Virus record (IMG/VR): IMGVR_UViG_3300007276_000116
Span: 1 to 38,497 of that record
Length of the DNA stretch: 38,497 nt
Origin: a virus
Strand: one strand, 5' to 3'
In this document: in pieces, positions 8,350 through 8,436 of the stretch
How positions within the stretch are numbered: position 1 is the stretch's first letter
Layout of the letters: the number at the start of each line of letters is the position of its first letter
Position numbers and translations under genes: made by a program
The notes under the pieces: model-generated
Databases searched by the model: none
What the model saw: the letters and a program-made list of their open reading frames with translations, nothing else
Told to the model about the DNA's origin: nothing

Positions 8350-8380
8350 GTTGCAAAAACGTCAGTGACGCAAATGCAAC
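8350..8380 (+). repeat. 31-bp nested palindrome, intergenic copy 1
   Basis: Plus strand GTTGCA-AAAA-CGTCA-G-TGACG-CAAA-TGCAAC. It is identical to the parB-internal copies but in the opposite orientation, as judged from the asymmetric spacers (AAAA versus CAAA). It lies about 70 bases past the polymerase stop codon. Confidence 0.9.
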
Positions 8381-8405
8381 AGGGAGGAACTTAGATATTA
8401 GAGGT

Positions 8406-8436
8406 GATGCAAAAACGTCAGTGACGCAAATGCATC
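8406..8436 (+). repeat. 31-bp nested palindrome, intergenic copy 2, with compensated outer arms
   Basis: Plus strand GATGCA-AAAA-CGTCA-G-TGACG-CAAA-TGCATC. Same inner core, spacers and orientation as the copy at 8350-8380. The outer arms changed from GTTGCA/TGCAAC to GATGCA/TGCATC on both sides, which keeps the pairing perfect. It ends 11 bases from the polymerase stop codon. Confidence 0.9.

Follow-up and report, generated by a model that had tools for sequence, protein, structure and literature searches.

The window, by which we mean the whole 38,497-bp stretch of DNA analysed (a complete IMG/VR virus entry), holds six copies of a nested-palindrome element, all within a single 1.5-kb stretch that reaches from the gene of a ParB-like HTH protein across non-coding DNA towards a T7-type RNA polymerase gene. 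Our preferred reading, put forward tentatively and with a little less than even confidence, is that these copies are cis-acting DNA sites belonging to the adjacent ParB-like HTH protein. From sequence comparison they are best read as putative iteron-like sites for replication or maintenance, which satellite-like islands would have captured and multiplied.

The window combines HK97-type (siphovirus-type) virion genes for head and tail (capsid, portal, TerL and tape measure) with a T7-like replication module (RNA polymerase, gp4-like primase-helicase, PolA, gp2.5-like SSB, exonuclease and RusA), and a serine integrase is also encoded; all of the assigned head, tail, replication and integrase genes lie on the minus strand. 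The polymerase consists of two ORFs, 10553-11212 and 8448-10478 (both minus; 219 and 676 aa), separated by a 74-bp gap with a ribosome-site-like stretch, and because the N-terminal piece alone is separately matched by phrog_25195, the split is perhaps not a sequencing error. A 1703-aa ORF (19553-24664) without a Pfam match carries a direct repeat three times at 159-bp spacing (21029-21646). The features of the element-bearing region and its surroundings are as follows.

6847-7914, minus strand: gene of the ParB-like DNA-binding protein, with DGFHR motif and HTH; phrog_26063
6985-7019, minus strand: sixth, diverged element in the parB-like gene, with inner palindrome AACCTAAGGTT
7096-7130, minus strand: element within the parB-like gene, 57-bp tandem unit
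7153-7187, minus strand: element within the parB-like gene, 57-bp tandem unit
7210-7244, minus strand: element immediately after the HTH codons of the parB-like gene
7915-8347, no strand: AT-rich non-coding stretch between the two opposed sets, purine-rich on the plus strand, with a 22-bp direct repeat
8295-8325, no strand: 13-bp stem-loop, a possible terminator
8348-8382, plus strand: nested-palindrome element, non-coding copy 1, outer TGTTGCA/TGCAACA, inner CGTCAGTGACG
8404-8438, plus strand: nested-palindrome element, non-coding copy 2, outer TGATGCA/TGCATCA, a paired change
8448-10478, minus strand: T7-type RNA polymerase, main part, 676 aa

The two non-coding palindromes lie where the sequence-only reading had placed them, GTTGCAAAAACGTCAGTGACGCAAATGCAAC at 8350-8380 and GATGCAAAAACGTCAGTGACGCAAATGCATC at 8406-8436 matching exactly, and the complete repeated unit is 35 bp (8348-8382 and 8404-8438). 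An exact 27-mer core occurs five times in the record, at 7100, 7157 and 7214 on the minus strand and at 8352 and 8408 on the plus strand, which bears out the claims that the non-coding copies oppose those inside parB and that the nearest oppositely oriented copies are about 1.1 kb apart; a reversed 27-mer control pattern had 0 occurrences in the 38,497-bp record. That reading had missed both the sixth copy (6985-7019, minus), which keeps the outer arms and the spacing with AACCTAAGGTT replacing CGTCAGTGACG, and a compensatory T-A to A-T change in the outer arms of copy 8404. A nested-hairpin detector found 6 elements in the window; none turned up in 60 windows shuffled in blocks, and a single one in 2.7 Mb of other loci treated likewise. 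The coding and non-coding copies have the 35-bp unit alone in common, and an inverted segmental duplication of the parB array was rejected, since the spacer between the non-coding copies is no closer to the parB spacers than shuffled sequences are (670/2000). A 45-codon, TTG-started open frame (8325-8462, plus) covers both non-coding copies; within it copy 8404, read in the parB frame, gives DAKTSVTQMHQ.

Seen from the AT-rich stretch, the A-rich strand on either side points outward in its 5' to 3' direction. The plus strand has a purine fraction of 0.55-0.60 across 7901-8600, although the assigned genes are all on the minus strand, and this may be the signature of a plus-strand RNA or of replication; the plus strand of 8200-8460 folds better than shuffles (z -3.1). 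The non-coding copies had been described as lying between the polymerase stop codon and its terminator, and their position between the stop (8448-8450) and the stem-loop at 8295-8325 was confirmed, but the stem-loop was not called as a terminator: a consensus terminator scan skipped 8295-8325 and on the minus strand called the element at 8415-8427 instead. Two 22-bp direct repeats, TTACTATGTGTACATCAGTTGA, lie at 8210-8253, with no further occurrence of the 22-mer in the rest of the record at up to 6 mismatches, and TGTACA is locally clustered (8082, 8106, 8218, 8240 and 8340); the repeats and the cluster may form an operator or a phage promoter. The GC skew of the record does not reverse clearly as it would at an origin, there being just a local positive value at 8-9 kb, and a combined test of strand bias and cumulative skew for an origin gave a weak result.

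An exact search for the core found nothing in viral contigs, blastn of the copies against phages or plasmids gave nothing at E ≤ 10, and Rfam had 0 matches on the window at the gathering score. A pattern that fixed the arms and A spacers but not the core returned seven matches in genomes and one in viral contigs. At least four of the five inner pairs were present in two of the seven genome matches, Thiobaca trueperi (locus L215) and a Shewanella MAG (L214), both with four, and in the one viral match (L261), which has a perfect inner stem; the other five genome matches, with one of five inner pairs in the fixed register, were discarded. L261 is the T7-like replication module of a phage record, G371 (PolA 50%, helicase 59% and RNAP 35% identical), and its ParB-like gene comes after the RNAP gene.

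A covariance model (CM), R2, built from the copies of the window, L214, L215 and L261, found arrays in G634 and, with a protein search, also in G848 and G1063. Eight sources were searched in all, giving 51 matches at E ≤ 0.1, of which 49 were counted as real (window 6, L214 8, L215 3, L261 1, L284 7, L285 4, L293 11 and L307 9) and two (L214 2896-2976 and window 19223-19250) were set aside as chance. The pattern-based matches, and the fixed-spacing pattern with free NNN arms described below, are the cleaner evidence, because the CM alignments were fitted to the structure. A loose pattern scan matched at least 120 loci, and of the 120 listed (L009-L128) none had both stems or a ParB-like match, a core-fixed pattern yielded 27 viral stretches, none with both stems, and the 80 of 138 PolA-based relatives that were kept had no ParB-like match and, by the models, no elements; four polA stretches and the loci L025 and L210 passed the detector by coincidence and were set aside.

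All of the relatives have one anatomy in common, in which an outer stem of ~8 bp encloses AAA, an inner stem of 4-6 bp with a short loop, and AAA again. The spacer positions, columns 9-11 and 25-26, read A in every one of the 36 distinct copies. The stems keep their pairing and not their sequence: the first set of nine copies (eight distinct) had 18 double-sided changes against 0 one-sided; the 40 CM matches (36 distinct) had 111 against 5, and a larger set, which includes the two chance matches set aside, had 150 against 7. In those 40 matches 83.5% of cells were paired, as opposed to 54.8% when shuffled and only 18-37% (at most 37.1%) when slid. A fixed-spacing pattern with free NNN arms recovered the three unmutated Thiobaca copies with their arms paired, one of them through G-T, and in other genomes NNN was paired in 1 of 14 matches. 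The inner core is nearly constant and the outer arms vary in the window, L215 and L285, where the element is thus a constant head on a stem that need only pair; in L214 and L293 both vary. Neighbouring copies of one array differ in their outer arms, a pattern not expected from plain sequence-specific binding.

RNA helices are expected to favour G-U. The variable pair columns contain 230 Watson-Crick pairs, 8 G-T, 5 A-C and 9 others, and the fact that G-T is hardly commoner than A-C hints at a constraint at the DNA level. Both A spacers are on one strand, and because the element therefore lacks two-fold symmetry a plain dimer operator is disfavoured. Nor is a peptide the conserved feature, since the element occurs in each of the three reading frames (VAKTSVTQMQQ in the window, LLQNRDSRKCN in L261 and CCKMASRQNATP in L214).

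The ParB-like protein of the window itself matches only phrog_26063 (unknown function), and its putative ParB label rests on the DGFHR motif and on the match of the L261 homolog to the ParB-like phrog_1033 (2.7e-7). Its AF2 model was poor (pLDDT 43), too poor to serve as the query of a fold search, so that the ParB fold is putative. A full-length homolog (36% identity) with 7 element copies is present at L284, and a further DGFHR-motif (ParB-like) ORF, L285 2147-3016 (plus), adjoins the second G634 array. Relatives were found neither by a DNA-level search, nor by tblastn of the protein against plasmids, nor by its peptide patterns in viral contigs; against phages, one tblastn search gave none and the other three weak matches (E 0.6 to 3). 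The HTH match L308 in G481 (E 2.1e-6) is without the element, which thus does not follow from this HTH type by itself.

In the window, in L261, in L215 of Thiobaca, in two HTH stretches of Shewanella and in G634, the elements start immediately downstream of the HTH codons. Wherever seen, the strand of the array is that of the local HTH gene or its remnant, except for the two non-coding copies of the window, which is the only source with copies opposing the gene direction. The L285 array lacks its own HTH gene on the array strand, and the island arrays of G848 and G1063 occupy broken or non-coding DNA that retains an HTH remnant.

The element is not a dispersed REP-like repeat. Many scattered copies had been named in advance as the mark of a mobile element of that kind; mapping across the whole record placed all 6 copies within 1.5 kb, and the other genomes searched had few or none. 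Under strict filters that lose weak copies, so that absence is not proof, model R1 matched one of the 99 genomes from the order to which G001 (Thiobaca) belongs (E ≤ 0.01), and R2 matched 9 of 398 in the phylum (E ≤ 0.01; clear arrays in two of the nine, G001 and G634) and, within the order of G634, 3 of 394 (E ≤ 1e-4). All 10 matches in G634 fell in two arrays, and all 3 unmutated matches in Thiobaca in a single ORF. Of the other seven genomes of the nine (G405, G448, G475, G535, G542, G566 and G596), the last four had five weak R2 matches that were read and judged to be chance; we take these five to be ribosomal L18-like ORFs (three), a pyruvate-kinase-like ORF (one) and an apparently intergenic palindrome (one).

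The islands of G634, G848 and G1063 comprise the loci L284, L285, L293 and L307. Of 34 window ORFs searched against 36 kb around one G634 array and the region of the second, two had a match: the ORF of the ParB-like protein, at 36% identity, and that of the major capsid protein, at 45% over 339 aa. The capsids of G848 and G1063 are of the T7 Gp10A type and 97% identical to each other; the G848 capsid and HTH remnant are 73% and 62% identical, respectively, to the capsid and the ParB-like protein of phage G371, and the other 8 of 10 G848 proteins tested had no match to G371. In two independent cases the genes found, among those tested, to be common to phage and island are those for the capsid and for the ParB-like protein with its hairpins. 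The G848 and G1063 islands hold 11 and 9 copies, against 1 in phage G371. Tyrosine integrase matches were found in G848, G1063 and the G634 flank, the island loci have resolvases in common (37-41% between most), and subsets of them share a tyrosine integrase, a KilA-N gene and RNase HI. By gene content these islands look like a satellite-like family whose members hold an array and, with it, a capsid gene that matches a particular phage, and they may instead be decayed prophages.

If the copies are cis-acting sites, the ParB-like protein or a partner would recognise either a folded-strand or cruciform form of the element or else its constant apical head on a stem that need only pair. Several copies could then nucleate a complex that leads to the start of replication or to maintenance of the phage DNA, in the manner of intragenic origin iterons, with one cluster in the gene and the other (8348-8438) reversed across the AT-rich intergenic stretch. 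We infer that the A-rich strand would be oriented as the lagging-strand template for forks leaving that stretch. Islands carrying the copied array and the capsid gene might in turn hijack or titrate the ParB-like protein of the phage. Against the cis-site reading are the outer arms that differ between neighbours in one array, the GC skew without a clear origin signal, the single copy in G371, the restriction of reversed copies to the window, the element-free HTH match L308 and the poor model of the ParB-like protein.

An RNA function, which we consider unlikely, would make the elements 3' UTR or terminator hairpins of the polymerase mRNA (minus strand), parts of an unrecognised plus-strand RNA, or hairpins of the parB mRNA. 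The hairpins fold well as RNA, the intragenic copies have their A spacers on the mRNA strand, copy 8404 scores as a weak terminator on the minus strand, and the purine-rich and well-folding plus strand described above is consistent with an RNA from that strand. The 3' UTR role suggested in the sequence-only reading is to that extent possible, but copies 8348 and 8404 carry their A spacers on the strand antisense to the polymerase mRNA, the variable columns show no clear preference for G-T pairs, the 3' end of the L261 polymerase gene has no copy, and Rfam offers no match. More unlikely again is a selfish mobile palindrome of the REP or Rickettsia palindromic element (RPE) type, a 35-bp unit whose paired changes would arise by hairpin template switching. 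It accords with the sharing of that unit alone between coding and non-coding copies, whose spacers are like shuffles, and with the presence of arrays outside intact genes (L285, L293 and L307). The absence of dispersal in the window, G634 and Thiobaca and the conserved position after the HTH codons argue against it, as does the lack of a transposase family in a Pfam scan of 40 window ORFs, and the spacers and columns 1-35, 8-28 and 12-24 are not corrected to pairs, contrary to passive template switching.

We regard as improbable a plasmid-type centromere (parS) for the lysogenic state with two blocks bridged by ParB. Such a centromere would fit a ParB-like protein with clustered inverted-repeat sites in and near its own gene, and ParB may bridge or loop between the opposed sets, as had been proposed for a second centromere block; in the strict sense, however, 'centromere' is not supported, no ParA, ParM or TubZ family having been found in the Pfam scan of 40 window ORFs (E ≤ 1e-3). 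The serine integrase, moreover, suggests chromosomal lysogeny, and the sharing of the array along with a capsid gene by the islands points to the lytic cycle. The least probable of the alternatives, in our estimate, is a signal for packaging or capsid assembly in the islands, or a decoy array there that titrates a phage protein, with a packaging-linked site in the phage. While the pairing of the array with a phage-matched capsid gene and the higher copy numbers of the G848 and G1063 islands relative to G371 speak for it, the sites of the window are in the early/replication region, far from the terminase at 35416-37838.

The cis-site reading can be carried further, to a version that we hold to be doubtful, if less so than the alternatives above: that the element is a new class of DNA site, recognised through pairing and polar A spacers and not through stem sequence by the ParB-like protein of T7-like phages; that satellite-like islands captured it with the phage capsid gene, multiplied it and use it to hijack or titrate the phage; and that the two opposed clusters are a two-way replication start. 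Should binding be shown, a site defined by pairing without sequence and by polar A spacers would count as a new class. Were this version right, the phages would have a recognition code that lies in base pairing and not in base identity and is visible from sequence alone, and the element would be a marker tying phages to their parasitic islands. How replication starts, how helpers are chosen and how satellites interfere could then be tested directly in temperate T7-like phages with a small protein and 35 bp of DNA.

No paper found by a word search of open-licence papers, represented mostly by the beginnings of their abstracts, describes the element, and known systems resemble it in part. ParB-parS systems and the F sopC centromere combine a ParB protein with clustered inverted repeats. 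The window likewise has a ParB-like protein and clustered inverted repeats, but here no ParA-type partner was found in the scan above, the repeats are in the gene and the stems are free in sequence. Integron attC sites are folded-strand sites with variable stems, conserved unpaired spacers and end boxes; the resemblance is one of working only, as those end boxes do not match here, and an integron integrase was not seen among the window ORFs scanned. The REP and CGTC-tagged palindromes described in PMC3733652 are short, and some lie in ORFs. REP and RPE sequences are like the present element in being short palindromes partly within ORFs; theirs are dispersed, carry a tag at one end and occur in unrelated genes, whereas here the loci are all HTH/ParB-linked. 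A GTAG or CGTC end tag is absent from the elements, whose ends vary (mostly TG...CA), CGTC occurring only in the inner core of the window copies.

In the PLE satellite, as set out in PMC8263062, the origin has ~30-bp semi-palindromic iterons bound by RepA, and the phage nuclease Odn shares the site specificity. The likeness is that of a modular DNA-binding domain and site pair common to satellite and helper phage; the differences are that a RepA_N domain was not found in the window, that the sites are mostly intragenic and that stem sequence is not conserved between copies. The iterons of phage lambda are palindromic in form. According to PMC4488673, the lambda origin lies within the O gene and has four 19-bp iterons, nearly perfect repeats, near an A-T-rich, strand-asymmetric stretch. 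The window likewise has repeated sites in the gene of a DNA-binding protein, adjoining an A-T-rich, strand-asymmetric stretch, and its sites lie in or beside the putative cognate gene as in iteron origins, but the near-identical repeats of such origins are not found. The lambda iterons are near-identical, whereas the stems here differ between copies with pairing kept, and here there are in addition a nested inner stem, polar A spacers and a second cluster in reverse orientation.
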